64,000 nt of DNA from Lunularia cruciata (Eukaryota > Streptophyta > Marchantiopsida > Lunulariales > Lunulariaceae), in NCBI GenBank assembly GCA_948567375.1, contig OX419761.1, positions 16,344,243-16,408,242 on the forward strand, written 5' to 3'. Position 1 is the stretch's first letter. Every line of letters starts with the position of its first letter. The notes below the pieces were generated by a model. That model was given only the letters and a program-made list of their open reading frames with translations. It made no database searches and was not told where the DNA came from. Positions 12,730 to 62,929 of this stretch are shown one piece after another. A program made the translations under genes and the position numbers.

Positions 12730-13314
12730 TGTTAGTTTTGATAATCTCTAGTTTAGTGACTAGATACATGATTAAGGTGAAGTGAGGGCGCAACCCTAAT
12801 TAGGGCTCTACAAAGCAACCTTCTAGAGCTTGCTTGTGCATATATATGAGTGCTCTCTGCTCATGTTAAGGTAAGTTCTCATACAAGGATCATTCCAACC
12901 ACCTTGTACCTTGTTTTGGGTGTGTTCTATGCTGCTTACCAGTAGGGTACCTTTCATGCTAATTAGGGCTCTACAAAGCAACCTTCTAGAGCTTGCTTGT
13001 GCATATATATGAGTGCTCTCTGCTCATGTTAAGGTAAGTTCTCATACAAGGATCATTCCAACCACCTTGTACCTTGTTTTGGGTGTGTTCTATGTTGCTT
13101 ACCTGTAGGGTACCTTTCATGCTACGTGAGTGCTGCTGTGTACTATCTTTGAATGCTCTGAGAGAGAGTGAGTTGAATATTGTTGAGTGCAATCAGGAGT
13201 GTCTACTTTGGTGAGACTAGAAAAGTTGAGTGCTAGGATGTCTGATACATCAGAAGTCAGAATGACTGAGGATAGACCATCTACTTCAAAGACTAGGAAG
13301 AAAGGTTCACATCA
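12730..13314 (+). repeat. Left (5') LTR of the copia element
   Basis: 585 bp, starting TGTTAG and ending CACATCA. It is longer than the right LTR because a 163-bp segment (12798-12960) is repeated directly at 12961-13123. The outer end is confirmed by the target duplication and the inner end by the primer-binding site that follows at once. Confidence 0.9.
12798..13123. repeat. 163-bp tandem duplication inside the left LTR
   Basis: Two direct copies, 12798-12960 and 12961-13123, both starting AATTAGGGCTCTAC and ending CTTTCATGCT, with about two differences. The right LTR has only one copy, so the duplication probably arose after insertion or came by exchange with another copy. Confidence 0.9.
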
Positions 13315-13328
13315 GGTTATGGGCCCAC
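13315..13328 (+). other. Primer-binding site: half-tRNA (initiator Met) type
   Basis: GGTTATGGGCCCAC directly follows the left LTR. It is complementary to the anticodon stem and loop of plant initiator tRNA-Met (GTGGGCCCATAACC), not to the 3' CCA end used by most elements. Priming by an internal tRNA-iMet fragment is established for Drosophila copia and yeast Ty5. Confidence 0.75.
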
Positions 13329-16300
13329 AATCACCACTGGGGTTGAGAGGAGAACTCAGAGAGCTAGAGAAATTGGGAAACACTACAAAGCCTGGGCTTT
13401 GGATGTGAAGTGTATATTAGAAAGTTATGATTGTTTGGACTTGGAATTAGAAGCTCATGATATAGATGAGCTTGAGTCCAACAAGGAGGAGAGAATCAAG
13501 CATTCTACAACTAGAAGGTTTCTGCTAAGGGCTATGCAAGAGCCGGTCAGAGACCTAGTAGACACTTATGCTTGGAGTTGGGAGATCTGGCTCAAACTCA
13601 AGAATTTTTACTCTGTTGAGAGGTTGGAAAGTTCCAGTAGGATCTGGGATGGGATGTGGAACACTAAACTTGCAGATGGTGAAGACTTTACTTTGCACTT
13701 GTCAAAGTTACAGAAGGTCTTCAAGAGTGTCAAGGAGGATGGGTGTCCCCTTACAGAGAAATATGAGATCAACCATCTCTTGAAGACTCTCCCTCCAAGC
13801 TACCAGCCTTTCAAAGTGGCTCTAAAAGTTCTACCTGTTGAAGTTGTCACATGGGATTTTGTGATAAACAGATTGTGGGTGTTTAGCAAAGACAGAGAGG
13901 ACCTAGAGATGAAGTTTAATGATTTGGGAGATTCTGCTCTGTTCAGTGCTTCTTCTCAGTCAAGGAGAGTGCCAGATAGAAGAGTGAGCAAACCAGAGCA
14001 ATCCACAGTGAGTAAATCTGGTAAAGGGGTTAGTAGTGTTGCTAACATGATATGTTATTTCTGTCATGAGAAAGGTCATGTTGCACTTATATTTCCCAAG
14101 AGAGTAGAAAGGAGAGAAGGAGTGCTGAAGAAGGTAAGCAAGGGACCTCAACCAGTAAGAGGTCAAAAATTTGCAAGTTCAGCTTACAACACAAAGGAGT
14201 GCAATGAGATAATAAGCGATGAGGAGGGGTACTCAGCAAAAGAGCTAGATTGTGGAATGTTGGCAGAATTGCAGTTGTCTACAAACCGTTCTGGATGGTT
14301 CTTGGATTCTAGAGCCACCTCTCATATCTGTTACCAGAAGGAGTTGTTCTCAACTCTTCAACCTCTGAAGATTCCCAAGAGTGTTTGTTGTGGACATGGG
14401 ATTCTGAATCCAGTGTTAGGAACTGGTAAAGTTCCTATTGCCTTCATGGGAAGATCTAACACAAGTTCTTGTAAGAGCTATTTGGAAGATGTGCTCTATG
14501 TTCCAGATTACACCAAGAACTTGATATCAGTACATCGCCTCCTGGAGCATGGAGTGGATGTTCTGTTTGAAAGCAACAGAAATCAATGCACTTTGAAGAA
14601 AGGAGAGCTGGTCCTTGGATATGGCACTGCCAGAGGGAAGTTGTTCAAGTTGATGGAAGCTGATTGTTCTGATTCTGCATTGGTAGCAGAAAACAGAAAT
14701 GATATCCATCTGTGGCATTTGAGGTTAGGGGACTTGTCAGTGCAAAACCTATATGCTTTAGAGAAGCTAGTGGATGGGTTGAAACTGGATCCCAAAGGAA
14801 AACTCAAGTTCTGCATTGGGTGTGCAGAAGGTAAGGCACACAAGGCTCCTATCCCCAAGAAAACTTCATCTAGAGCTTCTTGTCTTCTAGATGTCATACA
14901 TTCTGATGTATGGGGATACATGACTGAGAAGTCATTGAGTGGAGCAGCCTACTATATTCCTTTGTGGATGATTACAGTAGAAAGAGCTTTATCTATCTCA
15001 TGAAAAGCAAGGATGAAGTGCTGCAAAGATTCCAGAAGTTTGTAGCCATGGCTGAGTTGAGAAAGATGGAGGTAGAGAGTACATGAATGAGGAATTCCTC
15101 TCTTTTCTGTCAGAGAAAGGAATCCTTCTTGATGGTACAGCCAGAGACAGTCTTGCACAGAATGGAGTTGCAGAAAGGTTGAATAGGACACTGGTGGACA
15201 AAGCATTGGCCATGCTCCAACATGCCAAGCTGGAGAGAAAGTTTTGGGGTGCTGCAATTAGCACTACAAATTACCTTAGAAATATCGGTGGTACCACAAT
15301 ATTGCAAGGAAGAACTCCTGAAGAATGCTGGAGTGGTAAAAAACCTAATATTTCATTTTTGAAGGTTTTTGGATGTCCTGCCTATGTTCATATTCCCAAG
15401 GAGCAAAGGAGGAAGTTCACAAAGAAAGCAGAGAGAATGCTCTATGTAGGATATGAAGAGGGACTGAAAGGATATCTTTTGTACAATCCTAAGTCTAGAC
15501 AGATCATCAGAAGTAGAGATGTACTCTTTGATGAATTGAGGACTTGGAGTGAGAACAGTGATGAGTTGCAGAAGCAAGCTGATCAGTATGATCAGCCTGA
15601 TCGACCTATCTTCCCAAGCTGCAGAGTCAGTTTTTCAGATAAATCATCAGAAGAGCAATCTCTACCTGAAGCTGATGGTTCACCAGAGGAAAATCTGAAG
15701 GTGTACACAAGAAGACCTAAACAGACGGTGGTATCTGATTTTGATACTACAGAAGAAGACTCCCAGAAGCAGACTGCAGATGCAGAATCTCTGAGTGAGA
15801 TTCCGGAGATGTCAAAAGATGACATGACACTTCTTGGCGCAGGGCCAAGAAGATCACAGAGAGATAGAAAAGCTATTGACAGACTTGGCTTTCTATCAGA
15901 AGAGATGTTAGATGAATCTTACATCTCTCATGAAGATTGTGATCCAGACACCTTACAGCAAGCTTTGCTCAGACCAGATTCTGAGTCAGTGGGAGTTGGC
16001 TATAGCAGAAGAGAAAAAGTCTCTTCAGACTAATGGTACATGGGTACTAGCTGATTTACCACCAGGTAGGGAAGCAATTGGTTGTAAATGGGTTTTCAGG
16101 TCAAACTTGGAGCTGAGAATGAGATCCTGAAGTACAAGACAAGACTTGTTGCAAAGGGCTTCAATCAGAAAGCATCAATAGATTATTCAGAAACTTTTGC
16201 ACCAATGGCCAGGTATGGATCTATTCGCATGCTTCTAGCTCTTGCTGCAGAGAGAGACTGGGAAGTTGAGCAGTTAGATGTGAAAACAACCTTTCTCAAT

Positions 16301-17465
16301 GGAGATTTGAGAGAGACTATCTACATGGATGTTCCAGATGGATATACTGAAGGCAAAGGAAAAGTATGCTTGCTTAAGAAGGCTTTATATGGCCTTAAGC
16401 AAGCTCCTAGAGCTTGGTATGAGAAACTAGACTCATACTTGAGAGAGCAGGATTTCAAACAAGCAGATTCTGACATGAGTGTGTATACTAGAGATGATGT
16501 ATACATAGCTGTATAATGTAGATGATCTACTACTATTGGGGAATAGTGAATCTATCAAAGGAGTGATAGATTTCTTGTGTTCTGTTTTTTAGATGACTAT
16601 TCTTGGTCTTGGAATCAAAGTGAGCAGAGACAGAGAAGCAAGATGGATCCAAATTACTCTACCACAGTATGTGAGATCCATACTGGCTAAGTATCAGATG
16701 ACAGAGGAGAATCCTGTCTCTATACCTCTTGATCCGGGGTGGAAGCACAGTAGAATCATAGATGGGGAGATGAATCTTTGTGACAAAGTGTTATATTAGA
16801 GTGCTCTTGGTTCTCTAATGTTTATCATGGTCTGTACAAGACCAGATATCTGCTATGCAGTGGGAGCACTAGCTAGATATACTAGCAACCCTGCACAAGT
16901 ACATTGGAAAGGTATAAAGAGAGTATTCATGTACTTAAAGGGTACTCAAGATGCATTCTTGGAGTACATAAAGCAAGGAAACATACTTGCTTCTACACTT
17001 GAAGCATATACAAATGCTAGTTGGAGAGATGACACAGATAACAGTAGATCAACTAGTGGATATGTCATCATGCTTAGTGGTGGAGCAATTACCTGGCGTA
17101 GTAAACAACAAACATTTGTTGCACTGTCTACTACTGAGGCAGAATTTATGGCTGCCTCAAATGCTACTCAAGAAGTCATCTGGAACATGAGACTTCTTAA
17201 GGAGTTGGGTTTTGAGCAGGAGAGTCCTACTACATTGTACTGTGACAATACAGGAAATATAGCACTCAGTAAAAATTCTGTACATCACCCAAGGACTAAG
17301 CATATTGAGATTAGAAGAAGATGTGTAGAGGAGAAAGAAAAGGAGAGTGTAGTGAAGTTAGTTTACTTTCCTACACATGAGATGACAACTGATGTGTTTA
17401 CAAAAGCATTACCTAAAGATGTGCTGTAGAAATGGGAATAGTCCTAAACTCTCATTAAGTGGGAA

Positions 17466-17906
17466 TGTTAGTTTTGATAATCTCTAGTTTAGTGACTAGA
17501 TACATGATTAGGCTAGATACATGATTAAGGTGAAGTGAGGGTGCAACCCTAATTAGGGCTCTACAAAGCAACCTTCTAGAGCTTGCTTGTGCATATATAT
17601 GAGTGCTCTCTGCTCATGTTAAAGGTAAGTTCTCATACAAGGATCATTACCAGCACCTTGTACCTTGTTTTGGGTGTGTTCTATGCTGCTTACCATTGGG
17701 GTACCTTTCATGCTGCTTGAGTGTTGATGTGTACTATCTTTAAAGGCTCTGAGAGAGAGTGAGTTGAATATTACTGAGCGCAATCAGGAGTGTCTACTTT
17801 GGTGAGACTAGAAAAGCTGAGTGCTAGAATGTATGATACATAAGGAGTCAGAATAACGGAGGATAGACCATCTACTTCAAAGACTTATGAAGAAAGGTTC
17901 ACATCA
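17466..17906 (+). repeat. Right (3') LTR of the copia element
   Basis: 441 bp, from TGTTAG to CACATCA, preceded by a short purine tract (AAGTGGGAA, ending at 17465) that fits the plus-strand primer. It has an extra direct repeat of about 17 bases near its start that the left LTR lacks, and is followed by TACTT. Confidence 0.9.
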
Positions 17907-22049: not shown

Positions 22050-22347
22050 GGGTTGAGAATAAACAGCTAGCTGACCTGAATATCACCACATTTAATAATT
22101 ATATAATAATTATATTTACCCAATAATGAGAAGTAGTGAGCCCATTCTTGTATGTTATATATCTGCTAAGTGAAGATTATGCTTGCAAACAGAAGAAAGG
22201 GTTGAGAATAAACAGCTAGCTGACCTGAATATCACCACATTTAATAATTATATAATAATTATATTTACCCAATAATGAGAAGTAGTGAGCCCATTCTTGT
22301 ATGTTATATATCTGCTAAGTGAAGATTATGCTTGCAAACAGAAGAAA
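22050..22347. repeat. Exact tandem duplication of 149 bp
   Basis: Copies at 22050-22198 and 22199-22347, both starting GGGTTGAGAATAAACAGC. I find no difference between them by eye, so the duplication is recent or homogenised. The unit contains an AT-rich inverted stretch (AATAATTATATAATAATTAT). No coding frame. Confidence 0.9.
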
Positions 22348-23877: not shown

Positions 23878-24172
23878 TGTTAGGAAAACACAGTCCCTAG
23901 GACCTCTCACAATAGCACTTCACAAACCATATTAAACAAAAATCAGAGGACAACAGAAGATAACGTGGTTCACTTCCTATGTCCCATTGCTGAAACGGGC
24001 TCTCACAAGCCTTCAAAGACTTTATTTCTCATTGCACATATATATACACACATATAAACAGGTCCATCACTGTCATCCACTTGAACTTCTAGACAAGTGA
24101 CAAGCAACCGCCATCAGTTACGTTTGCTTTTGCCCTTGACGTGTCATCATTGATAACAAGCAAAACATAACA
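23878..24172 (-). repeat. LTR (3' LTR in element orientation) of the shortened copia fossil
   Basis: 295 bp, aligning along its whole length with 25633-25923. Its inner edge abuts a purine tract when read on the minus strand (GGTGGAGAT), the expected plus-strand primer. Confidence 0.85.
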
Positions 24173-24405
24173 ATCTCCACCATTTGCTTGTATCCACCAT
24201 ATCATCCCAAAGAGCAACATTGAACATTGAGCAAGTTCAAGCCATACATAACAATCTCCACCTTTTGCTTGTATCCACCATATTATCCCAAAGAGCAACA
24301 TTGAACGTTGAGCAAGTTCAAGCCAGACATAACAATCTACACCTTTTGCTTGTATCCACCATATCATCCCAACGAGCAACATTGAACATTGAGCAAGTTC
24401 ATGCT
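24173..24405. repeat. 81-bp tandem repeat, about three copies, next to the LTR
   Basis: TTGCTTGTATCCACCATAT begins copies at about 24184, 24265 and 24346, exactly 81 bases apart. On the minus strand the first two copies are each headed by a purine tract plus TGTTATG, resembling the PPT/LTR junction. Long open frames on both strands here are products of the repeat and not genes. Confidence 0.85.
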
Positions 24406-25618
24406 TAGTCAACGTTTAAACTGCATTTACCTGTTTACCTCCGTGTCAATCTTTTGCAAATTGATCTCACCATTTATCCTTGTGTCAATCTTTTGCAAAT
24501 TGATCTCACCATCTATCACAGCTTCCTTGATAAAATGATGTCTCACATCAATATGCTTTGTCCTTGAATGATATACTTTATTTTGGCCAAGTGAATAGCG
24601 CTTTGGCTATCACAAAAAAGTCTGGACTTCATGTTAGGGAGTCCAACATTCTTGGCTAATCTTTGTAGCCATATTGCCTCTTTGGTAGCCTAGTTGTTGC
24701 CATATATTCCGCCTCTGTAGTAGAAAGAACAACAGTAGATTGGAGTGTAGACTTCCAACTTACTGCACCACCAAGAAGTGTAGAAAAAAATCTTGTTGTA
24801 GACCTTCTCTTATCCAAGTCTAAGGAAAAGTCAGAATCTACATACACTGTAATTCCTCCTTCTTGATCATTCTCCACATCAAAGGTAATGTCAATATTTA
24901 TAGTCCCTTTCAAGTAACGAAGTATCCACTTCAAAACTTTCCAATGTTGTTTCCTTGGCTTTTCCATGTATCTACTCACCATACTCACAACCTATGAGAT
25001 CTCTGGTCTAGTGCAGACCATAGCATACATTAAACTCCCAACAGCACTAGCATAAGGAATATTTGACATTACTTTTCTCTCCTCTTCATTTGATGGACAT
25101 TGCTCCAATGATATCTTGAAATGACTTGTCATTGGAGTGCTCACTGGTTTTGCATTCTCCATGCCAAACCGAGCAAGTAATTTTCCAAATATCTCCTTTG
25201 AGATATCATAGTTTTCCCTTGCTCTTGTCTTGAGTGGATTTCAATCCCAAGCACACTCTTTGAAGTACCAAAATGCCTAGTGATATCAAATTATTCCTTA
25301 ACTCAAGAACATGCCTCACATCAGCAAGAGTCCTCACAATACCATTAAACATCTTAACTCGTATTGTACCAATGCCAATAGCTTTGCAAGCCATGATGTT
25401 CCCCATTATTACAGATCCTCCATGAAACCACTCCTTATTTGGACACATTTGGTAAGAGCAACCTGAGTCCAATATCCAAGACTCCTCAAATTTATCTTTG
25501 TCTTGGGTAGCACATAGAACATCATCCACAATACCAGATGACTCAGCAATACTTGCTTGATCTGAAAGTTGACCCTTATCCTTATTGGACTCAATCCTCT
25601 TGTTGTTATAAATCTTAA

Positions 25619-25630
25619 GCTTTGATACCA
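25619..25630 (-). other. Primer-binding site of the shortened copia fossil
   Basis: Minus strand TGGTATCAAAGC, two bases inside the right LTR. It matches the common plant site TGGTATCAGAGC, complementary to the 3' end of initiator tRNA-Met, at 11 of 12 bases. Confidence 0.8.
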
Positions 25631-25632
25631 AT

Positions 25633-25923
25633 TGTTAGAAAACACCGTCCCTAAGACCTCTCACAATAGCACTTCACAAACTACATTAAATAGAAATCAG
25701 AGGACAATAGGAGATAATATGGTTCACTTCCTATCCCCGAAGCTACCTTCACTGCTGAAAAGGCTCTCACCAACTTTCAAGAACTTTAATTCTCATTATA
25801 TATATATATATATATAAAGGTCCATCACTGTCATCCACTTGAAACTTCTAGACAAGTGACAAGCAACTGCCTGTTTGCTTTTGCCCTTGACCAGTCATCA
25901 CTAATAACAAGCCAAACATAACA
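25633..25923 (-). repeat. LTR (5' LTR in element orientation) of the shortened copia fossil
   Basis: 291 bp, with a short AT dinucleotide run inside near 25797-25815. It is the mate of 23878-24172. Confidence 0.85.
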
Positions 25924-26079
25924 AAAACAAGATAAAGGATTCAAGCTGTCTTTTGTGAAGCCCGTCATGAGTGAATTAATTTCTATCTCCTCGTTTATCC
26001 AACACAGTATACTTAACTTCTGATTTACAAGTTCCACAGGATATTATCTCAAGCCTGTGGGTACCTCTAGGACTTCCCA

Positions 26080-35400: not shown

Positions 35401-38400
35401 CTCACTTTCCGCGACAACATTGCTATGCTACTTAGAAGCTCTTTAATTACTTGAAATTAGACCTCTACAAACTCTGTGGTGTTTGACCACCTTCCCTGAG
35501 AGCCTAGGTTAAAATGATATACACATCGAATGCAATACTCACACAGTACGACCCCGGAACCGTAGTCACCTACTCAGCCATATTTCGCGTCCATTTTGTC
35601 CAAGTACACGTATACGACAATTATTATTATATCTAAGGATTTGTATTCCGAGATTTTGACAGGGTAGTATCAGGGACGGCCGAGATTCTACAGATTCCTG
35701 TCGGAACTACATTAGTCCCGGGCGAAGGACAAAATCGAGAACTTCTCTTCCACGCCAGATCGAGGAAATCAGTAGGCTACACAAATTTGTCCCTCTCTCG
35801 ACACCCATTTCTTAAGTGCATTCCTGTACGCTGCTTCTTTGGGTTGAGTTGATGTCACTTGTAGCTCATTCAACTCAGAAACGAAACGCGAGACGTATTA
35901 ATCATGAGGAGGTCGCACGTGATTGCACCGATACAGTTTTCTAAACAGGTTGACGTTAACTTTGTTGCAGAAACGGATATCACCAACCCAATGCGCGTTC
36001 TCAGCAGACGATTTATTCAGCTTTTCTTGATTCACGAGGTATTGCAGCTGGAAGTTGAGTGTCCCCGAGTAAACTTTTATTGAACAATTCTGTTTGAGCT
36101 TAAAAACCTTAAATGCGTAAAACCTTTCCCGTGCAGAAGGCCTCATTCGTACCATGGGAGCACATATTGGAATATATCGTGGATGGACAGGGCCATGACC
36201 CTGAAACAATGCGAGGTCTAACCTTCTCGCTATAGCTCCTTCCCCTGTATCGCCATGCATGTATCTCATTCAGTTCACCATATTTAGGAATCAATATGTG
36301 GGTGATTCTTACAGTCAAGGCAATTGACTGGTATGTTGTTCTTCTTACTTCTGGAGTTCTAGATAGCCCTGTGCTGATGACTGAAATCCCGACGGTTCGG
36401 GATCTTGAATTTGTTCCTGTGTAACAAATATCGAACTCCAGGATAGCTTAAGACCCTTCGTACCTTCTCTTAGATGTTTGATATAAATACTAATCTACCC
36501 ATAAAAATTTCTTACTAACATTGTTCTTGTCTACAGCTAAGACCAGGCGCCTGGGAGAAATCGCGAGAATATTTACGGCGCTTAATTTGATCAAGAAAGT
36601 GGCCAATCAAAAGCCTCAATCATCTCTGGTGTTTGAATGGTTGGGAAGTCAAGGAGTTGCAGAGCACCTTGTCTCGCTTGCTGGTAGGACATCACAAAGT
36701 AACACTGGATTACACTCCAGACCCGATATCTGCAAACAATTATGGTTCTTCTTTGATTTCATGTACAGGATTCAATACTTGTTCAGTCTCTAACATGCAA
36801 ATTTACCACTGGTGAAAAGAGTTGTTAGAAACTTGTTTGTGCATGAGAGGTTACATATGGTTGTCAACCCTTGACTAGCATCATAGAGGTAAACGACGCC
36901 TTCAACTTTATGTACCTCGTTATGAGCAATAGCAGCACGTTTTGAAGTCATATAGTCACTGAGACTACTAATTGATCTTGCAGCATCGATGAGTAAAAAG
37001 CTTGATGGGAGACGTACCAGGATACAGCAAGCCAGAAGCAAGTCGAGATCTCCAAGGAAGCAGGAGAGGAGAGGTTATGGACCAGGACAAACTTCCCCCG
37101 AAGATAATCTCAGACTTGAAAACCAAGTGCAACTGCAGCGTTCGCAGTCATTCCCGGAGACATCACTGCCCTCGCATATGGGCAACTCCGGATTAAGCAT
37201 TCAATCTAAAGGCGAGACATCTGCTCAAGATCGTAGGCTGAAAAGAAAGTATGCAGACGCAGATGAAAATGCACCTGTTTCTGGAAACCATTTTTTGCCA
37301 CGCCAAAGGAAATGTCAGAAGCCGTTCGAGATTATTTCGGTTAATGAAGCTGCTGCGCCAAAATCTGTATCAGTAACAAACCCTTTCCTGACATCTTGTG
37401 CTGGTCTCACACTCAGCACTGCATTCAGTTTGTGCCAGCCGTCTTTGTCTGGCCATATCAGAGGTGAAATCTCATCGCAGTTGGACATCTCACTCTCTCA
37501 CCAGTTGTCCCAACAACCAAATTGGAAGCTGCAAGCTGACTTGTTATCAAGCAGAAAGTCATCCATGAATGCACTTGCCCAGAGTTCGTCGTTTGTGCAT
37601 GGAAAGCTTCAGAGTTCCCCAGAAAGCGTTGAATTTGACGAGATCTCGCTCGAAGCGGAGAAGGATTCATGTGAGGTGGAAATTCCTGAATTTTCTGCCT
37701 CATCAGAAGGTGAAATGTCGCCAGAGAAGATAGATGCGGGCTCCCCTACTACAGAAGGATACAAAGAAGATAAAAAATCTCATGGAGAAGGTGATCCGAG
37801 AGACGTGCATGTCAGGCTGTCACCTAATACGGAGGGATACAGTAAGTGGCAAGAGTTACCCGGCTTGGCTGCTGGGGAGCAGTGCATCTCCAAAACTGAA
37901 AAAAATATCAGATCGAATGAGGTGCGACCTCAAGCAGGAAGTCTGATTTCGACTGATTGCACAAACGTATCCTACCCCGTGCAAGCAGCTCATCAAGTCC
38001 CGTTTAAGAAGCGAAAGTTCAATGTATCATCATTTGAAAGCCATAACAAGTCAAAGGAGGGTGACAGTCCCTATAGCGAATCTCATGGATCGCCTTCCCG
38101 CGATCATGGTCCCGAGATTGCGCACGGTAATGGAGAATCTCAATCATTAACTTTTGAGCCTCTCTCTCATCTCCTATTTTCCAGCAGTCCACAGTCAGTG
38201 TTCGAACTTCAATCACAAAATCCAGGTGAGTTTTCAATATCTGTTCCGTAAATTCCATGATAGGAGCTTACACCCAAAGGTCAATGCTTACTGGACAGAT
38301 TTCTCGGATTCCCATGTGGGCTTCAAATAACTTGCTCGTACAACAAAGTGAATCTTTCATATTATTAGCTAAATTCATGTGGATACATTTTGATTGCTAA

Positions 38401-44700: not shown

Positions 44701-46150
44701 TTACTATTTATAAAATTATTATTATTATCATTTTGGAAATTTAAATTTAAATTTAAGGTTCAAGTATATTAAATAGATACCAAATCACTAAAATCTCTTC
44801 CAGGAATTAATTTGGAATGACTTGCATCCACATGCAAACAAATGTCAACTTGGCCATGTTTAAAATTTAACAGTATAAATCTTTATATATGATACTCTAA
44901 CTTGTTGGAATAACTTCCAAATAATCACCTACAAACTACACAAGTGAATATTAAAATCATCATGAAAATATTTGTAAAATTCTCGGTTCTTACATAACAT
45001 CTTCTAATAATAAAATCATCATGAAAATATTTGTCAAACTCTCAGTGCTTACAAACCATTTGATGGATCATTTCCGTCGAATATAACCCTCTTTTTTGAA
45101 TAATAAAATAACCTATAATATGGAAATAATCTGGGCCAATCTGGGCATATCAAGCTCGAATCATGGGTGTTGGAACCTGGACGGAGTATCTAACTCCATT
45201 CAGTTCCGTACACTTTCCGTCCAGTGTAACCAGAATGGTGGATTACGTCTAGATAGTGGCTAGTGGCAGTGGGCTTTTTCTCCGTAGTCAACGTCTTGAA
45301 AAGCACACGCGACGCAAAAGTAGTATCAGGACGAATACTGGGTCTCAACGTTACATCACATGACAACTGTATCTTTCAAGTACCATCAATGACTCAGATT
45401 CTCTCCTAGTCAGTTAGACTGTATGGCTTACAGATCTGAACTACTCAGGTGCCTTATGGGAATGCTTCCAATCCTGGCACCTTATCCCATTTTGACAAAC
45501 CCATGCTTTCCCGGAAAGCAGGATCGCCGCTTATCGAGCATCTGACCAGCCGTCTGTTCGCCACGTCAAGGTAGAGTATTTACCGACTTTCAGTAAAGAC
45601 AAATCACTGTAGTCATTCTTCTCCCTCACTACAGACAAACCTGCTCCACTTCGCTGGTGCACCGTACAGTCCATTTCGCGGATTACCAGAGAGATCTCTC
45701 GACCCAGTACAGACATCAGATGAGTGTACTTCTGCTCCGTTAGATTTGGATCCAACGGTGTTTCAATGTTATAGTGCTGACGAGGAAATATCGACAATGT
45801 GCACAAAGCGGTGCAATAACAGGTGCACGAATCAATCGGACGGTATCGGACGCTTTCCGCAATAGCGGACCTATAAAGCGCTCGATTTCGGGGATCTTTT
45901 CGATGGTAGAAGTTAAATATGAAGTAAATAATATTCTTCATTGTGCGATATCGACATGGTTAGAAGTTAAAAGATGATGTAAATATAGTTACAGCCGTCC
46001 GATATGGAAGCGGACGGTGAGTATCAGATGGCAGATACTATTCTCTGTGGAGTGAAACAGTCAAATGGACGACAAGTGGGAACATATGCGAAAGGTTCTA
46101 TGGAATCAGAAATTGATGAATCTGTCGTTGCCTGCCATAAAGCAAAGGAA
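38743..46150. other. No supported gene
   Basis: ORFs of 70-136 codons (for example 39242-39523 +, 41217-41540 -, 42458-42796 +, 45531-45941 -) lack recognisable domains and convincing splice partners. 43.2-45.1 kb is strongly AT-rich, with an imperfect direct repeat around 44950-45058 (AAAATCATCATGAAAATATTTGT twice, about 61 bases apart). A small hairpin, CCGTCCG/CGGACGG, lies at 45995-46017. Confidence 0.4.
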
Positions 46151-46558
46151 ATAGACCGCAATCCCGTGTAGGGAGAGGTTGAAGATTTCTGAGTCGAATA
46201 AATCGAAGGTCGTATAATCAGGTGGAGAAATTGAGGGGGAGGATGCGCGCTGCGCCAGCAGCGCGCCGGAAAGGAGAGGAGAGGATATGGCAGTCGGTTG
46301 AGGGACTGAGAAGGTACAAAAGAGAGGCCAACAGCAAATCTTTAGGCTGATAAGTCGGGAATTCGTGGCGATGGAGAAGCAGGAGATGGATTAGCACGCA
46401 ATGATTTGGAGTAATGGAAGTGAATTGGTGGACGGATGATGGCGGAAGGAGGGAAGGCATAAAAGTTGATGGCGGAGGTAGAAATGATGGTGGCATGTCA
46501 ACGGGACAGAATGTGGAAGAGAGTGATGCTGCGGCCGGAGGTGCAACCTTAGGGGTAT

Positions 46559-46623
46559 TGGAAAGGAAGGAAGGGAAGGGAGGGGAAGGGGAGAGTCTTC
46601 AAGAGAGAGAGAGAGGGGGGGAG
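46559..46623. repeat. Purine-rich simple repeat (GGAAG/GA runs)
   Basis: An almost unbroken purine run of GGAAGG-type repeats, then CTTCA, then GAGAGAGAGAG and a G run. It lies about 1.1 kb upstream of the ATG of the transporter-phosphatase gene. GA/CT tracts are common in plant promoters and leaders, so it may belong to that gene's 5' region. Confidence 0.6.
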
Positions 46624-47759
46624 GAGGACGTCAAGTGCGTCATGGTGTACGGTACTCGTGGTGTCTTTAGGTGTGAACAGAGGAGCTGACGAGGTGAATG
46701 GAATGAACGCGCAGGTATCACAGCAGGGAGGTTATGTCTTTGTTCGGCCTGGGGAAGGGCTGATGCAGACGGAAAAGGAGGCAACATGGCAGCCAATGAC
46801 ACAATGGCGCGAGTACGTTTCTGCACTGTTGGCTTGCAAGTAGAGAGGAGAGATGCAGAGGTCTGCCAGGACAGGAGATGTGTGAGAGGAGTTTGAGGCA
46901 GTTTATGTGCAGCAAAGCTCGTATTCTGGGATTCTCGCTCTTCTTTTCTGAGTGACCTTGCCTACTTCCTATCAGAAGTCGAGATTGTGCAAGTTTGGTT
47001 GGATCTTCCCCGTGAATCGAGTCTAGCTATACTTTCCTCCGAATGGTTGATTCCACTCATGATGCTGTCGTTCGCTTTTCTCTCGCCTGTCGGAGTGAAT
47101 TTTCTCTCTCTCGGTGGAGATGTATGACTATGTTAATGTGCAAATTAGGGAGGTGTGGCTGGCTTCTACCTTCGAGATTTCGAGGACGTGTACTGCCTGT
47201 TGAAAGCAAACAAAAAAGTTCGTTGATTCGTTAATATACTTAACTGTCTCTGTTACACTCTTTCGGACCAGGAAGTACAGTATGCCGCTGGAAGCAGGTG
47301 ATCATTGGTGGAAAGCCTTGAATCCTGATAGTCGGACTTCTCCTCGTGTAGCATTCACGACAACGACAAGTAAGACGCAGCAGGGATATTGCAACGCGAA
47401 TCCAGTTCCAATTTGTGAGTGGGAGCACAGCTTGACGGTGTGAAGAAAAGCAGTGTTGGTTACAGTTTGTAGACAGAATTCAGAGCCTTAACTGGCTTGG
47501 CTCCTCGCCATCGTCAATGACTGCATTGATATGTTTGCCACTCGAAGATGGAGAGAAGCATACACCTTTGAGAGGAGGAGCGGCTATCTTAGTCTAAGCT
47601 GGCAATTATCTTCTAAGGAAATCGCATGTCTGGGTCTCTGGGATGAGCAGAGATATATGGAGAGGTACTCTAGTAAGAACGTTGTGAGTTGCGACTACAG
47701 TTCAGTGCACTGCAGTAGCTCGCATTCACCCTGATGGGCAAGGCTGAAGGTTTGTCAAG

Positions 47760-50700
47760 ATGGAGATTCAGGAGCTGCAGGAGAAATTCAGTCAGCTTAA
47801 CGCGACCGTTTACCAACTCGAGCATAGGCTTGGCCAAAATCACTTGATGACCTACAACCTATGGAAGATACAGGCTTCAATATTCGTTTTCTTCATGCAG
47901 GTGAGTTGTGTCCACCCGACTTGAGAAGGTGCCATCCTGACTCAAACGAGATGGGAGCCTTGGTAAACCAACTCTGAAAAATATGGTCTCAGTCTCGGGC
48001 GAGATGGAAATGGTCCCGTTCGTTGAAAGACGTTACGATTATAAATGTAGAGAGGATCTGGTCTTCCGTTTATTCGTGGATCCTCCTATCATGTTCCCTG
48101 CCTCGATTTCAGGCGATCGTATATTTTGGTGCCTAATTTGGGTCTAGCTTGCTGGACAGACAAGAATTTCCACTCGCACCTGGCATTTTTCCAAGCTTAG
48201 AGCCTTATGATGCAAATGTCTCTATCATTTACCTCTCTCAACTTGTTAGAAAATGGTCAATATACACTGTTCTGAGGTTCTAAGACTTGGTTCGCTAGTT
48301 TGATCTTTCACACAGAATTGAGCAATGTCATAACGACTGCAGTGCTCCTTGGTTATTGTCCTGAATCTCTTTGCTTGCGTCAATGTAAAGTTCGACCTCC
48401 TCTCCCTCATCAACATTTGTCTTAACACCATCAGTTGATTGCAAGTCGAATCAAATTAAACTTGGAGTCACACTGGTTCCATGCATCCCGAAAACATACT
48501 GAGAGATTTATGTCTGTCAATATGATAAGAACTATGCTCAAGTGTCTGTATGCATGTTTTTCTTGATGTTTTTCTTCTTTGCGTAATTTATCTGGTGTTA
48601 ATTTGTACAGCTTCTTATTGATAAGCGAGAATACTCCGCGACTCATAAAAGCAGCAGAGCAGTCTTTTTATCAGTGCGCAGAGATGTTGGTGTATCTTTG
48701 ATTAACGATACTAAATTCTCCAGGAACTTGGTGATCTTGTTCTAATTCTGATAAGTAATGCCAGTATGCACGTAAGTTGATTGTGAAGAAGTTCACGAGG
48801 TTGGGACCTGCAAAAGTTAATGATTCTTCTCTATATCATCACAGGTGGGCTTTTCTCTGGTGGAAGCAGGAACGGTTCGACTGAAGAATACTCGCAGCAT
48901 CATGGTGAAAAACGTTTTGGATACGTGTGTCTGTGTGATAGCATTTTGGATCTTCGGTTATGCCTTTGGTTTCGGTTATGGCTCAAAGTATATCGGCTGG
49001 AAATTTGAAAGTGGCAAGGAAGCCTTCTTCGGCTCGCGAGGACAAATTGATTTTTTTTTCCAGTTCTCTTTCGCAGCAACGTCAGCCACGATCATTGCAG
49101 GAGCTGTTGCTGAGCGCACTCAGCTACTCGCGTACTTGGTGTATAGGTACTGGAGCAGTCATGTGTTACATCTGGGTTCAGAACTAGGTTCATCATGCAC
49201 TCACTGAATGAAGATGAGATGTGCTTCATTTCTCTCGTTTTTAAGCTATCGACAAAAGATGCACTGACAATTTTCTCATATAGTGATAACCTTCCACTTG
49301 GTATTCTGTTTCTTGCAGTTTCTGTTTAAGTTCTTTCATCTATCCCGTCATAGCCCACCTGATATGGTCAAAAACAGGTCTGCTAAGTGCAAGCTCCGTG
49401 CATACCGTCCTTGGAACTCATGGAGTTTTAGACAATGCTGGATCCATGGTGGTTCATGTGACGGGTGGCGTGACAGCGCTAGTTGGTTCTTGGATGGTCG
49501 GCCCCCGGATTGGACGGTTTGATATTGATGGAAAGCCAATACCAATGAAAAGTCATTCCATGGTAAGTTTCAACATCACAATGGAGATCTGTATTAACCG
49601 TAAAGAGGACATGCTAACTCTTGATTAGAGTAGCCAATGTGGAACATGAATAAATGATTCATGACCTGCGTACTATCTGTTTACTTTGACCTTCAAGTTT
49701 ATGAATTGAATGGCGTGTAGCGTGAATGTTACATACCTGCAGACGAGCCATTCAATTTGGTACGGTACTCTCCGACGAACGAAGCTCTCAGAGCATTGTA
49801 CAGGTTTAGACGTTGATACACGTGCTTACTTTACCGCGGCTACCCCGCCCGAAGAACACTTCTTTGCCTTTACAGGCACTACGTGCTTCTTTGGCCGGAA
49901 ATGGCCTTCGTCAGGCATAGAAAGAGCCCACTTGGAATCTCATTTATCTCCTTGGCCAGACTTTTAGAGAATTATAGACTTTATATCCAACTAAACACTG
50001 GTTTCAAAAGTGGCATCTGTAAATGGCATCTTTTAAAAGAAATCAAAATCGCGAGCTATTCTTAATAGCACATGTCCAAGCCGATCACTCAATGCCACCG
50101 ATAGACTTGGTCGTTAATATGTACTTCGTGCACTATTAAGTAGCTAATCTGCAAGACGTTGTTAGGCACCTGTTTTGAGTTGCAAATATTTGGTAAAGCA
50201 CACTCAACTTTGAACGGATGACTGATCTTTGCAGGTATTTACGGCAGCTGGCACACTTATTCTTTGGGTGGGATTTTTTGGATTCAACACGGGTCCTGTT
50301 GACTATAATAAGGACGATGGGCTTGCATGGACTGCTGAGATTGCGAGGGTAGCATGCAATACGGCATTATCAGCAGCATTCTCTGGCGGTGTTGTGTTCT
50401 CTACGCAGCAACTAATTAGAAAAAGGTCCAAACCGGAAGACGTTTTCAACTCAGTGTTGGGAGGTCTGGTTGCTGCCTGTGCTACAAGTGGTGTTGTACG
50501 CCCTTATGCTGCGGCAATCATTGGTAACTTCATGGTAACCCTTGAGCCTTTCATATAAATCGCCACCTGCGACGAGATGTGTAGGTGCACACGTTGAGCT
50601 GCAAGGAGTCAATGTTGTAGACAAATCCCTTCTCAGGTTGATGGAATGATATGCTAAAGTTTGAAATTTTTTAGTAATCATGGCACGTCATCTTGGTTCT

Positions 50701-51653
50701 TTCTGAATATGTAGGATTCGTCTCTGGATTTGTGTATCTCTCCGGCGTATGGGTTCTTCTAAAGTTGCAAATCGATGATGTGGTGATGGCTGCACCAGTC
50801 CACCTCTTTTGTGGTACTTGGGGTGGACTTGCCGTGGGCTTCTTTGCTGCCCCGTATGAGATTCGTCGTACATTTGGTATCGACAACCCTAAAGCATGGG
50901 GGCTCTTCCATGGTGGTGGATTAGCACAGCTCGGTACTCAGGTGAGTCTGTTGAGTGTTGACCTAAAAGTTGAACTTTTCTCGTTCCTAGATTGGGTTCA
51001 ATCGCAGGGTAATCTGTTGGCTTTTTAGAGAGCTTGAAACGAATTGCGATAGATCCGTTCAATGCTTTGGGTCATGAGGATTTCGACCGTCTTTTATCTT
51101 GTTTCGTGGCAAGGCTCCAAATTCTTAGCACGCCTTGTTCGTCGTTGATGCACATCTTTCGCCCACAAGCATTCTCCTGTGAATGGGATGTTCATGTTCA
51201 TGCCCTTTTCTGTGCTTTGATATTGTCGCCTGTCTTTTCGGTTTTGCCTTACTAAAGTAAGAATAAATAAATACTGGTTCCCTACAGGTTGTAGGGTTGC
51301 TGGTTGTTTATGTATGGGTCGGAGTGACAACTTTCATCGTGTTTTACGCGTTGGCTTATTTCAACGCACTAAGGGTGGACCGACAACTAGAGGAGGTGAG
51401 TTTCTCGATCCTAAACATGCAAACCCTGGCATTTTTCTTTGCTGGAGAACTGCGCTGTTGATCGACATTCGTTTTGCCACCCTTCACATCCGAGAAGGTG
51501 AAAAATTGTGAAATAGGGGAGCGACTAGCGTTGATGGGACGTCTCTACATTAGACAGTCGTTTGGTTTTACCGGGGGCCGCGGAAATGCATTGAACCGAT
51601 TCTATCTCTTTTGTGGTCGCTACAGGGAGGATTAGATTTGGCTTTCCATGGAG
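47760..51653 (+). other. Ammonium transporter (AMT) module of the fusion
   Basis: About 447 residues, matching a full [23 protein letters not shown] and [19 protein letters not shown] give the first span and the conserved K-N block. [20 protein letters not shown] and ERTQLLAY follow, then [14 protein letters not shown] with Asp186 and His194, which align with Asp160 and His168 of E. coli Amt[13 protein letters not shown] carries His355, the counterpart of AmtB His318 and likewise eight residues after a conserved Asp (347). Both pore histidines are therefore kept, as expected for a working ammonium conductor. The [10 protein letters not shown] form is closer to the AMT types of algae, protists and animals than to the AMT1s of seed plants, as far as I recall. 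After the last span the tail reads [18 protein letters not shown], the conserved trans-activating C-terminus. Confidence 0.92.
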
Positions 51654-54083
51654 GTTCCGATAGGGAAGCAGATGTGTGGAATGGTGGACATCGGCGACCT
51701 TTCAACGTTATTAAGGACCGAAAGGTGTTCTCAGTCAGTCGTCTTCGTTCTAGGTGTTCCATGGTATCACTAGTAGCAACTCAGAGGAGAGGGGAGAGGT
51801 CCCTTCGAAGTTCCATGTGGTACAAGCCACTCAAGAGCACCGTTTTTGGGGAGTTCTCATTTGCAATGTACGAAGCGAACTATTTCATGGAGGATGCTGG
51901 CGAGGTAAGACTCTGAAGTGCTTTTGAACGTTTTTCGGTCCTGGAATTCCTCCTGTGCACTGATTATGAGCTTTCACACCGTGAGTAAGCATCTTGATCC
52001 TAATGAGAACAGACCAGTACCGAGGTGTGTACACACAAGCCATTAACATTTGAGAAAAGCATGCTGAGATTTTGCTCTTTTCTCTGAGGTTTACGGCGGG
52101 ACAACTTTCGCGATATTATTTTGCAAAAGCTGAATTCTATGTCAAGTGCCCATCTGTTTGTTTTCGATACTGCATTTATTTGACTGGAAGCTAAATGTCT
52201 AATAACTTTTGAACTACCCCATCAAAAGTAATGAAGTGGTCGTTGGTTGAAGAGTTTAGCAGAAAGGTATATCCTTTTCTAACCACGCACACTGCTCTTG
52301 TCGTCACGACTAGGGGTTGTATTAGTTTACCTATATGCGTTTGTATATTGGATGTTTTTAAACTAATGAATTTTTATGTAAAAAGTACTCATGACTATGG
52401 ATCATAATCTGTGCACTGACAATGTCTTTGGTGATGCAAAACATGAAGGTGGAAGCAAGTAATAGCGGCGTGTACATTGGAATTCATGATGGCCATGGTG
52501 GTGCAGAGGCTGCATCTTTTTTGAAGGAGCATCTCTATCAAACTATGAAAGGTGCCCTCTCACATGCTACGTAGACCATGCTTGGCGATGCACTGTAGGC
52601 ATGCAGCCGTTATATGAGGTCCTTAGTAAAAAATTTCAAATTCCTGGTTATAGATCTGCAACGTACTGGTTACAAAACCCTTGAGTTTGCTGTGTTTTTA
52701 ACCAAGCGCTCATTATTCAACTTGGTTGCAGATCGTTTTTTGAAACAAAACGGGGTGGTTACAGTGGACGCCATCAGAGATGCCTTTGTAGACACCGAAG
52801 ATGCATTTGTGAATATTGTTAGAGATGCTTTCCCGAAATCTCCACATCTTGCTACTGTGGGCTCTTGTTCGTTGGTGGCTATAGTGAATGGAGATAATTT
52901 GTACGTGGCCAACATCGGGGACGCTAGAGCAGTCTTGGGCTGCACTCGCGGAATCGAAGTGACAGCCGTTCAGTTATCAGTCGACCACAACATTAATAAC
53001 AGAGAGTGCAGAGAGGCATATGTGAAAGAGCATGAAGTTTGCTGTGGAGTTGACAACCTTGTTTCGGAGAAGAACGGGAAGTGGAGGGTGAAAGGGAAAC
53101 TTCAGGTTTTTCTCGTCCTCTTATGCTCTCCTGTAATGTACAGCTGTTTAATCCATGATATCGTAAAGGTCCTGTTGTAAGCGTACCAAGTTCGGTTGTC
53201 TTGTTTCTGATGATGGTCACAGTGGCTACTCCTTGAATTATAGATAGGTTATTCATTTGTTTTCGCTTTATTTAGTTGTCTCCTTACCTTCGTGTTCAAC
53301 ATGAATAACAGCCGAATTGGGGTTCATGTAGGTAACGAAGTCTTTTGGAGACTTGTACATGAAGTATGCAGAGTTTAACCGAGAGCCACTTTTCTCTCGG
53401 TTCCGCATTCCAGAACCCTTCACACCTCCGATTATATCTGTAGAGCCTACGGTGAATGTACATCCATTAACAACCAACGACGAGTTCCTCATATTAGCTT
53501 CTGATGGCCTGTGGGAGTACCTAACGAATGAAGAGGCCGTCGACATCGTTAATACCTCTCCCCATAAGGTGAAAGTCGGGTTTATGCTCGAAATCAGTTC
53601 ATTACGGATGGAGGTTTTGTGTAATTCACATTACCTGGAACGTAATGTGTCGGAACTTTGTATTGTCAAGGTAGCCGGGGGCTGACCCCTACCTTCCTCT
53701 GTCCTTGTCCACACCTCTGAGCTGGTTTCTCTTATTGTTCTATGCAGGATATTGCCAGGGTGCTCATTAAAAGTGCTCTACAGATAGCAGCCAGGACACG
53801 TGAAGTACCTTACCATGACCTTGTCCATATGCCGAGTGGGCAGCGTAGGACATTTCATGATGACATGACCGTGATTGTGTTTTTCTTCAAGCATGGGTCC
53901 AGGAGAAAAGACTCAGCCGGAGAAAATGGCTGGAAACATTCCATGTCTGTAAAAGGAGGACAAGCCGCCCAGATTGCTTTAAATGCTATTTCTGCTCATA
54001 TGCACAAGGCATCTAGTCACCATGGACCCAGCAAGGCTCACCATCGCTCCTCCCCTGTTCATGAAGCTGTCATTGACATGTAA
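47760..54083 (+). CDS. Ammonium transporter-PP2C phosphatase fusion, eleven exons
   Basis: Exons: 47760-47900, 48845-49146, 49319-49562, 50235-50523, 50715-50941, 51288-51395, 51626-51904, 52449-52551, 52732-53105, 53332-53568 and 53748-54083 (TAA). Every intron has GT-AG ends and the phases match at all ten joins, giving one frame of 2640 nt, about 879 residues, with no internal stop. Residues 1-30 form a putative coiled coil, about 31-447 an AMT/Mep-type ammonium channel, about 448-500 a basic linker and about 500-830 a plant clade-D-like PP2C Ser/Thr phosphatase, followed by a His/Ser-rich tail. The start is the ATG at 47760, directly before the first membrane span. Exon 7 alone carries the AMT C-terminal motif (GLDLAFHGG) and the PP2C opening ([23 protein letters not shown]), so the fusion does not rest on an assumed join between two genes. 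Expected at a membrane with the phosphatase in the cytosol. A possible poly(A) signal, AATAAA, lies at 54563. Confidence 0.88.
51806..54083 (+). other. PP2C phosphatase module of the fusion (plant clade D type)
   Basis: The domain opens with MWYKPLK and [16 protein letters not shown] (residues 501-527), the same start as plant clade D PP2Cs (WYKD...G-FSMAVVQAN...EDQ). Motifs follow in order: IGIHDGHGG with Asp544; [20 protein letters not shown] then [22 protein letters not shown] with Asp696; [20 protein letters not shown] with Asp747; and [11 protein letters not shown] with Asp807. The metal-binding aspartates needed for Mn/Mg-dependent catalysis are all present, so activity is likely. The exon series 52449-52551, 52732-53105, 53332-53568 and 53748-54083 covers the domain without gaps. 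The tail after about residue 830 is rich in His, Ser and Lys ([19 protein letters not shown]) and has no known domain. Confidence 0.92.
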
Positions 54084-57000
54084 AGCTACCTTATCAAACT
54101 CCTTGTAAATATGTTTGTAAAAGTCTGTAAGGGACTTCTACACTCTGCCAGCCCTCAAGAAAAAGGTTGACGTGGCGAGAACGAGAGAGCGCCCCCCATC
54201 CCAACTCCCCTCCCTGAAAATTTTGTTCTATCCTATGCACGTAGAGTAAAGGTATCAACAGCCACTTCAGTTTTAGTTGGGGTTGGAAAACTAACCCCTC
54301 TTAGCAATAGGAGTAAATTATATTTCTCCCTGTAGTAGCATATAATTGAATGCTACTACAAGTACTCATGGTGACTTCCTTCTCTTCTAGATAGAGAAGA
54401 AAAGAAGTTTCTTTGCTCGAGAACCTAATCATAGCCAGCAACTGAATGTAAACCATGGCTTGGTCATCTTCAATTCGTGTAAGTACTCAGATCTGTTTTT
54501 CGAGTCTAAAGCAAATGGTATGGAATTCTAGTTATACCTGAGTATCCTGATTCCAGACAGGCAATAAAGATTGGCTCGAAGTGTAGAGCCTTTATTTGTC
54601 AAAGCGACCAGGTGATAGCATTTGCGCTCCATAAGGTGCTCCATTGTTGAGGTCAGGGACGAAATTCTGAGAAGTGAAGGGTATTATAATGCAATCCTGC
54701 ATATGTGTCTTTAGCAAGCGCCTACCCTGCTCGTTTAAGAAGTAAGGATCGCAGATAATGTGCTGCTCTGGTCGAGCAGTTGATGTCACATGTGTGTAAG
54801 GAAATCTATAACTTTTCTTCTTTGCACTAATCCTCGCCCGCAGTTCCAGAAAACTTTGCTCATCACTATATTTCAACGACAGTTACGAGCAATTTAAGCC
54901 TAGTTTACTACGCCATGTCTTGTCCAATCTTTCGGGGTTGTTTGAACTGACGGGTTCCACAGCTCGAAAGAAGAATTTGATGTGCTCTTGCCTACAAGCG
55001 CATGACAATATAGCTCACCATGGAATTTCAATGTGCCTCAAAGTCAAATGTTCTCTCGCAGGTACTGACCATTGCAATGCCTGAGTGCCGGCTCTATTCT
55101 CATTTCCATCTTTTCGTCGAAGTTTCTACGCATCTCTACCATAGTGTTGCACGGGAATGGAGATCATCTCTGCCCACGCTGCATGTTGCAGTCAGTTTCA
55201 TTTTATTGTGATATCTTTACTCATGCTGCCACATGTTCCCGGAGTAGGGTTTACAAATAAAACCTGCTTTGTCTCAACTGCATCTCACATTATTGCCAAT
55301 CTCTAGATTAAACTAACGTATTTTGCTTAGCGGAACTAAAATGGTATGAGAGCAGTAGTAATGCTCACATGTAGGTGTGTAGTTAACTAAACTATGCTGG
55401 TAATCAGCAATTTAAAACCAAATCTCGAGTTGCATGCAGTACTTATGGCGAAAACAACTATTCTGCACGCTCGTAATAGCCACAGTGAGAATTGAATTGG
55501 TACCATATTCTCTTAATTGTATTCTGAAAAGTAGGACAGAACAATCATGCAGACTAGGTCACACTTTAATAATAACACTTCAATTAAAATTCACTTCCCT
55601 CTCTTCCTCTTATCAAGTCACAAACAAAACAATGTCGAAAGTTACAATGAATTTCGTTGATCTTGTGTCATAAATTCTTGGAAATTATAGACAAGCAATT
55701 ACGTATAGTTGTGAATAATATACGTAGAATTAGAAGGTGAATGCATTGTTGTAGCAAGAAAGAGTGTTAAACTGAAGGACTCAAATGTGGACTCAAATAC
55801 TGGGAATTTTCATCTATCATAGTCATTCAACTGGGATACCAGTCTGTGTACAAACTATGTAGACAATAGAGGGAGGGAAGCTGGAGATGAAAAGGCATAA
55901 TCGTGACTAGAGGATATAATGGAAACCTCATTATCCTACCATCAAAATGCGTAAAATAATGGGAATTTGGACACAAACAAGTATAGGAATACACAATATC
56001 ACTTATGATCAAGTTCATTTAAGTACGTGCTGAAGCTTAAGATAAACAAAACTATGTTATCTGATTGATCTAAAGAAGAATCACACTTAATGAAACAAAT
56101 AAACTACCTTCCTTTTGGTTATAACTAGTACTTCTTGAACTGATATCACGATCTTGACCGATGTGTCATATTCTAATGAAAATAGAATGAAATGCAATCT
56201 GCTGATATCTCACTTGTATGACCTAAAAATATCGGGAAGATTCCATGTTAGAACCACAAGGGAATATTGATTACTCCACATTGAGATTTCAAATTAAGAC
56301 GATAAACAAATGTGAAGTTTAAATAGTTCTCCTTCCTTAATATTACCATGAAAGTTACTTTTTAAACTCATGATCTTTCTCCAGGAGAAAATTAATTCTC
56401 CTGCTTTGGTGCTTATCATGTTTGAGTAGGAACTTCTATTGTATTGTCTAAAATCTGAAGAGACAGTTTCTGTCTTCGTGTAGTCCAGAGCCTATCTGAA
56501 TCTGGAAATAGCTGTCTCCCCCTTAACAAATCCAACATTGTCAAAATTAGTTTCGTGTAATCATCTGTTATGAAAGTTTAGATAAGCAGAGTTGATAACT
56601 TGGAGTTAAATAGTGGAATTACCACGGTAGAAGACTCGAAACTCCCCTGGTAAATTAAGGCGACGGGCGAATGTCGGTGCCAATCCTACCCCCAATTTTA
56701 GTAGTTTCTTCTCCGAATGCCACTTTTTCCAGTTCCCTTCCTCGCGCCGCTTAACTTAGAAGTGAACAACAGCAAAAGGAACTACAGTAGTTAAGTACTG
56801 TACATTCCTTTTGGAGATAGAGTAACAATCAACCACGTCGGGCGTTCTCCTACTACCAGACCCAGCAATGATTTGAACGAGGTTGAAGTTACTAACGTAA
56901 CTGCAGTTACGCTATTAGCTCTGGTTCCGCACTAAATATACTTTACGAATCGGACACCTTGTGCTTCTGAGCTGTCAGCTTTGCATTCGTAACTATTTAA

Positions 57001-62265: not shown

Positions 62266-62929
62266 TTCTTCTGTTGATGCCTCCTCTCCACCTCCCCCTT
62301 CCCTTTGGTTTGTCTCACCGAGAGCTTTCCAACATTACCTCACCCATGTGATTCTGAGATTCATATAAGAAGATTCCCTAAAAGATTCCCTCTAGTCAAA
62401 GCTTGTTTGACCAACCAGAGGGGACCAAGATAAACATGGCACCCATCCAAGAAAGTAATCTAAGGGTGGAGCTCTCTGACAGGTCACCTATCCATGTACA
62501 TGATCCTATGGTGGAGTTTCCTTGGAGTAGATCCTCTTTGGCTATATAATAAAGAGAAGGTGCTCCCTTGGGGCACCAAAGTTTTGAGTGTGAAACCTAT
62601 GTTTTCTCTTCTATGTTTCTTTGCTATCCTTGGAACATTACAAGCTTGCACCCTTGTCAGAGCAAGAGCAAAGATATGCTCTAGTAGCTTGGGGAACGGA
62701 TGAGTCAACTAAGAGAGAAGATAGCATATGCTGACATTGTTTCTCCATCAAGGAAGATTTTAAACCTCTAGTCCAATCTGACAATAATGAATCAAAAGAT
62801 GGAAGGTCCTTGTATGCACATGAGGATAAACTATCTCTTGTTAGCCGCAATAACATTTGGAGAGAAAAGGATCCTTCCTCCACCTTTATCACATAAGTTT
62901 CCAAAACCAACCTATCAACAACCACAAAA

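Follow-up and report, generated by a model that had tools for sequence, protein, structure and literature searches.

A single gene on the forward strand of a 64,000-nucleotide stretch of the Lunularia cruciata genome (contig OX419761.1, positions 16,344,243 to 16,408,242; hereafter the window) appears to encode an ammonium transporter (AMT) followed in frame by a protein phosphatase of the PP2C family. Eleven exons at 47760-54083 (+) join into one frame of 879 codons, running from an ATG at 47760 to a TAA at 54081-54083, as the first-pass annotation of this DNA had proposed; all 10 introns have GT-AG borders and compatible phases, and their lengths range from 172 to 944 bases. Pfam profiles place PF00909 (ammonium transporter) at residues 35-448 (336 bits, E = 2.8e-100, model positions 2-397 of 399, cut-off 23.2) and PF00481 (PP2C) at residues 520-783 (147 bits, E = 1e-42), each scoring above its Pfam cut-off, in agreement with the earlier claim that both domains are full ones. 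When residues 1-530 were submitted to NCBIfam, the best match was the general amt model TIGR00836, with a score of 343.5 that is barely above its cut-off of 343.3. Support for the two-domain architecture is strong; the function proposed for it below is inferred.

Gene structure

All exons lie on the + strand. Exon 1 (47760..47900) carries the start codon, an N-terminal extension and the start of the first transmembrane helix; this ATG is preceded by A at position -3 and followed by G at +4. The next exons build the AMT: exon 2 (48845..49146) encodes the Phe-gate residue F123 (F107 in Escherichia coli AmtB) and most of the residues that align with the ammonium site of Ks-Amt5, exon 3 (49319..49562) encodes W164, D186, N187, and H194 (AmtB W148, D160, F161, and H168), exon 4 (50235..50523) encodes F243, F246, and P250 (AmtB W212, F215, and S219), exon 5 (50715..50941) encodes H355 (AmtB H318), and exon 6 (51288..51395) encodes the final hydrophobic peak, at residue 411. 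Beyond exon 7, which is treated separately below, the PP2C domain continues through exon 8 (52449..52551; DGHGG motif, residue 544), exon 9 (52732..53105; PP2C core), exon 10 (53332..53568; VTKSFGD at residue 690 and ASDGLWE at residue 745), and exon 11 (53748..54083), which holds HDDMTV (residue 805), aligns weakly to pyruvate dehydrogenase phosphatase 1 (PDP1), and ends with a C-terminal tail and the stop codon.

The choice of splice sites is not unique: 2880 combinations near these sites remain open, and at least three others, which give 872 to 876 residues, equal the reported model in reaching the highest donor score. With so many open combinations, an open frame alone is no proof of the model, and it is homology that provides the proof. 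A tblastn search of the window with the protein (E up to 1) found no second AMT or PP2C copy; the sole match elsewhere, at 62500-62673, was at chance level (E = 0.24). An upstream ATG at 47734, 26 bases 5' of the main start, lies in another frame with C at -3 and could lower translation.

Exon 7 and the linker

Exon 7 (51626-51904) encodes residues 438-530. The PF00909 match ends and the PF00481 match begins inside it, which upholds the first-pass proposal that this exon is shared by the AMT end and the PP2C opening. Its first part (51626..51679, +) encodes the AMT C-terminal motif with Ala443, and the alignment with E. coli AmtB crosses the border between exons 6 and 7 (GLDlafHG on GLDvnsHG). 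The last part (51815..51904, +) encodes the PP2C opening, MWYKPLK...FMEDAGE, which is covered by the Pfam profile from residue 520 and aligns with a provisional clade D sequence from the first residue onward. Homology to both domains in a single exon makes the misreading of two neighboring genes as one unlikely, and the homology that flanks the linker within exon 7 is the strongest support for the fusion.

Between these two parts lies a basic linker of 45 codons (51680..51814, +; residues 456-500) that contains 12 Lys or Arg, 2 Asp or Glu, and 9 Ser or Thr residues, with a single RxxS/T motif (RLRS479). The exon is open in its own frame and has three stops in each of the two other forward frames. 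A linker of 45 codons would be open by chance with a probability of 0.17 (from a Markov model fitted to it) or 0.07 (from intron segments), so that openness is weak evidence alone. The codon score of the linker is near zero (-0.01), a value reached by 1.9% of intron segments, and since this score penalizes stops it partly repeats the openness of the linker.

The AMT domain

Eleven hydrophobic peaks precede residue 450 and only one, of 1.06, follows it, as would be expected for an 11-helix Amt with its C-terminus inside, the topology described for AmtB (PMC10433425). The pore keeps the Phe gate (F123 and F246), the S1-site Trp (W164), the pore Asp (D186), and the twin His residues H194 and H355. 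Three changes relative to AmtB are seen: N187 for F161, F243 for W212, and P250 for S219 of the S1 site. In an alignment of 35 bacterial rows, some of them nearly identical or incomplete and drawn from one genome, the AmtB residue stands at these positions in 31/35 (F161), 34/35 (W212), and 33/35 (S219) rows; Ser is also found at the S219 position in a provisional AtAMT1;1 sequence. S219 belongs to the outer binding site, and the S219A substitution raises transport by AmtB (PMC10433425, PMC7256485). Identity to the provisional AtAMT1;1 sequence is 38%, which is not above that of the best bacterial rows, yet this match has the highest score (255 versus 208 bits).

Plant AMT1s are shut by phosphorylation of a tail Thr within GMDMT(p)RHGGFA, as represented by an antibody peptide, and the separate PP2C ABI1 lowers the phosphorylation of AMT1;1 and AMT1;2 and activates AMT1s (PMC9516733). 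The L. cruciata protein resembles the plant AMT1 system of CIPK23 and ABI1 in combining an AMT-clade channel, with the tail motif G.D...HGG, and a PP2C. It differs from AMT1 plus ABI1 in that both are in a single polypeptide, the PP2C is clade-D-like rather than clade A, and the regulatory Thr is replaced by Ala443 (GLDLAFHGG). The attached PP2C therefore has no CIPK23-type phosphate to remove at that site of its own tail. The first-pass annotation had cited PP2C control of a nitrate transporter (CEPH acting on NRT2.1); ABI1 acting on AMT1 (PMC9516733) is a closer case.

The PP2C domain

The closest solved structures to the C-terminal half are PP2C 56 (ABI1) and PDP1. The ED (526-527), DGH (544), SDG (746), and DD (806) motifs are all present and correspond to the metal-binding motifs of the family; DGH and SDG align with ABI1, and ED and DD with the provisional clade D sequence, DD also aligning weakly with PDP1. 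To a provisional PP2C.D6 sequence, the identity is 43% over 325 residues with 286 BLASTP bits, a score that is not strictly comparable with the 73 phmmer bits of the best solved plant PP2C. A complete, clade-D-like PP2C fits this half, as had been suggested, although the clade assignment comes from comparison with a provisional sequence; phosphatase activity is likely.

Along with its similarity to Arabidopsis clade D PP2Cs (provisional D6 sequence), this half aligns to the middle region of PDP1-type enzymes. It is unlike clade D PP2Cs in that a complete AMT precedes it in frame and in its TKSFGD and GDAR variants, and its insert after the ED motif is shorter than in the provisional D6 sequence. 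Clade D PP2Cs work at the plasma membrane (PMC9522268, PMC10879185), where they dephosphorylate the H+-ATPase (PMC10879185).

Comparison with Amt sensors of bacteria and fungi

Ranked by sequence, the best solved relatives of the AMT half are 8qj3, 8qj4, 8qpf, and Ks-Amt5 (6eu6), all ahead of AmtB, and the chains of the first three (644-661 residues) exceed the length of a plain Amt. The AMT half was matched by 370/398 genomes of one bacterial phylum, and frames of at least 600 residues were found in 13 of the best 20 matches. Sixteen frames of at least 600 residues had a fetched locus, and every one carried at least one of the PAS, GGDEF, EAL, HisKA, and MCP domains (E thresholds of 0.001 in one scan and 0.00001 in the other): GGDEF in 11, MCP in 2, HisKA/HATPase in 1, and PAS only in 2. 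These GGDEF, histidine-kinase, and chemotaxis fusions agree with the earlier statement that Amt domains are joined to signaling domains in microbes. No PP2C domain was detected in these 16 frames, 11 of which are truncated at the locus edge so that their ends are unseen. Two of the bacterial loci (L008 and L026) combine an Amt with a methyl-accepting chemotaxis signaling domain and are possible ammonium chemoreceptors.

The L. cruciata protein shares with Ks-Amt5 and the bacterial Amt-GGDEF, -EAL, -HisKA, and -MCP proteins the order of an N-terminal Amt followed by a signaling domain. Unlike the bacterial sensor Amts, its output domain is a eukaryotic-type PP2C in place of a kinase, cyclase, or chemotaxis domain, and its gene is intron-rich. 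Ks-Amt5 binds two ammonium ions through Q24, E31, N47, D50, T51, T109, and T112, and its output domain is proposed to lie beneath the neighboring subunit, an arrangement in which a shift of loop 5 may extend to the linker (PMC5764959). The counterparts of these ligands are Q47, E54, N70, D73, T74, T129, and A132, a match at 6/7 that is only suggestive of ammonium sensing. In 32 bacterial rows scored in the same way, with three partial short rows set aside, fused rows reached 5 in 15/16 cases and 3 in 1/16, unfused rows scored 2 in 11/16 and 5 in 5/16, and T74 (Ks-Amt5 T51) occurred in 0/32; the provisional AtAMT1;1 sequence scored 3. Other positions diverge: the selectivity-filter Ser is kept in Ks-Amt5 (S227) and is Pro250 here, and the bulky Y30 and F34 of Ks-Amt5 are V53 and T57, while Ks-Amt5 F27 is matched by F50.

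In fungi, the Amt/Mep protein Mep2 has been proposed as an ammonium signaler (PMC10433425). The L. cruciata protein is likewise an Amt/Mep protein. It differs in that its best NCBIfam match is the general amt model and in its fused enzyme domain, which Mep2 is not known to have. No AMT-PP2C fusion was described among the matches listed when open-access literature pairing a transporter with PP2C or phosphatase was searched. Joining of a bacterial Amt to a signaling domain is already known; a eukaryotic Amt joined to a PP2C was absent from the matches listed, and such fusions may exist unremarked in predicted plant protein databases.

Origin of the fusion

In a tree of 37 rows, the AMT half grouped, with weak support (65/63), with three unfused rows on long branches. 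Once these three were removed (34 rows), its partner was the provisional AtAMT1;1 sequence (97/89), and it fell outside the clade of fused bacterial rows (99/98). Long branches are involved in both groupings, which are to be distrusted. The trees did not support descent of this half from the sensor Amts of bacteria, but an approximately unbiased (AU) test did not reject a union of the two (p = 0.237). The AMT1s of 20 land-plant genomes form one clan (PMC3922906).

Relatives of the AMT half were sought more widely. None was found in a viral collection (9 pattern matches), and one, from Magnetovibrio, was found in prokaryote contigs (37 pattern matches). A tblastn search of plasmids covered 138 records, and the best place was below 60% identity in 138/138. 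Both halves contain introns, which argues against retroposition and leaves joining at the DNA level as the simplest history. The gene probably arose by such joining of neighboring AMT and PP2C genes within what is now exon 7.

Possible function

We regard an ammonium-responsive, AMT-anchored membrane phosphatase that acts on neighboring proteins as the best reading of this gene, with a probability of about 0.42. One apparently plant gene would here supply a diverged AMT-clade domain, then a basic linker of 45 residues that faces the cytosol, and a complete clade-D-like PP2C with metal-binding residues. By analogy with other members of the family, the protein would form a plasma-membrane trimer and present three cytosolic PP2Cs per complex. 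On entering the AMT core, ammonium could displace loop 5 and the C-terminal region in the way proposed for Ks-Amt5, and the tethered PP2C could then change in activity or in how far it reaches; given a Ks-Amt5-like geometry, ammonium occupancy could move or gate the phosphatase. The targets would be membrane proteins nearby. The most plausible are the H+-ATPase of the plasma membrane and the GMDMT(p)RHGGFA tails of other AMT1s, and the AMT tail of the protein itself would not be a substrate at the regulatory site (Ala443). The "transceptor" idea put forward in the first-pass annotation is in this sense reasonable, and bacterial Amt fusions support that type of design.

Several observations weigh against the ammonium-responsive phosphatase. 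Three substitutions in the outer substrate region (S219P, W212F, and F161N) may impair ammonium binding or entry, although S219A raises transport by AmtB. At 53 columns the bacterial rows are invariant (at least 95%), and the L. cruciata AMT departs from them at four (A132, V184, F243, and S302). In the PP2C half, the SRSIGD and GDSR of ABI1 are replaced by TKSFGD and GDAR. Union of the AMT half with the bacterial fused clade was not rejected (AU p = 0.237). We also considered the Ks-Amt5-like site as proof of sensing and rejected it, since 5/16 unfused rows equal the score of 15/16 fused rows; what these ligands identify is one region of the Amt tree and not sensing per se.

A stronger version of the proposal is doubtful, namely a eukaryotic ammonium receptor-phosphatase that evolved independently of the bacterial Amt sensors, with a pore re-tuned to sense rather than mainly to transport and directly gating three tethered PP2Cs, which would control the phosphorylation of surrounding transporters and proton pumps. 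Rather unlikely, in our view, is an arrangement without ammonium gating, in which the AMT transports or only anchors and the PP2C is held at the membrane in threes. The fusion itself, the intact PP2C motifs, and the plasma-membrane function of clade D PP2Cs (PMC9522268, PMC10879185) would all be accommodated by it, but a bare anchor would need neither the conserved pore His residues and gate nor the Ks-Amt5-like residues. A transporter that regulates itself, with the PP2C clearing the attached AMT domain or the linker of inhibitory phosphates so that transport stays on, has a precedent in the activation of AMT1 by the separate PP2C ABI1 (PMC9516733) and could draw on the basic linker with its nine Ser and Thr residues. 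The conserved regulatory Thr is Ala443 here and the linker has a single RxxS/T motif, and we consider self-regulation distinctly improbable.

Two accounts concern the gene itself. Substitutions at the conserved AMT sites S219, W212, and F161 and the long branch of the AMT half could reflect a recent, lineage-specific fusion without a selected function, or a gene in decay; set against this are 879 codons without a stop or frameshift, splice sites that are all canonical, and intact catalytic PP2C and twin-His residues, and we judge it improbable. Least probable of all is that two genes share an exon or overlap, with the AMT ending in or after exon 7 and the PP2C starting in intron 6 or exon 7. 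Exon 7 has four in-frame ATGs, and two of them, M483 and M501, precede the PP2C homology or coincide with its beginning, which would suit such an arrangement, but both carry T at -3. M525 also has T at -3 and M518 has G at -3, and these two fall within the PP2C homology. The homology of exon 7 to both domains and a frame that continues without a stop between them likewise speak against separate units.

How plant cells perceive ammonium as such, rather than the compounds made from it, is an open question in the field. If the AMT-PP2C protein is what it appears to be, an ammonium channel and dephosphorylation are joined in one molecule, which would make that question directly testable, and an ammonium signal could be converted directly into dephosphorylation of intracellular proteins. 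It would be a natural design that couples transport to dephosphorylation, and the joining of Amt and signaling domains seen in bacteria would also have happened in a eukaryote, with a phosphatase.

Genomic context

Several features of the window suggest plant nuclear DNA: an intron-rich gene, a G+C content of 32-49% in 2-kb steps, and a copia element. This element is a Copia-type long terminal repeat retrotransposon at about 12730-17906, in which gag, Pol_BBD (integrase region), SH3, and RVT_2 domains lie between repeats that are ~90-93% identical; one end is partly tandem-duplicated (12796-13124), and the coding region is split across several frames. A Pfam scan of 20 other frames of the window gave copia domains only, in 4/20. 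A probable second copia relic lies at 23878-25924 (-), with Pol_BBD in the open frame 25209-25634 and an 81-base tandem array at 24157-24401. Scans of the window with Rfam and for tRNAs gave no match, and no repeats of at least 25 bases were found within 45000-57000.

A 149-base tandem duplication at 22050-22347 is 100% identical and is either very recent or an effect of the assembly. An open frame of 431 residues at 36956-38248 (+), Ser-rich by eye and with no Pfam match, is possibly an exon. Another open frame, at 11443-11865 (-), has by eye a leucine-rich-repeat-like periodicity (SLGQL, LEKL).

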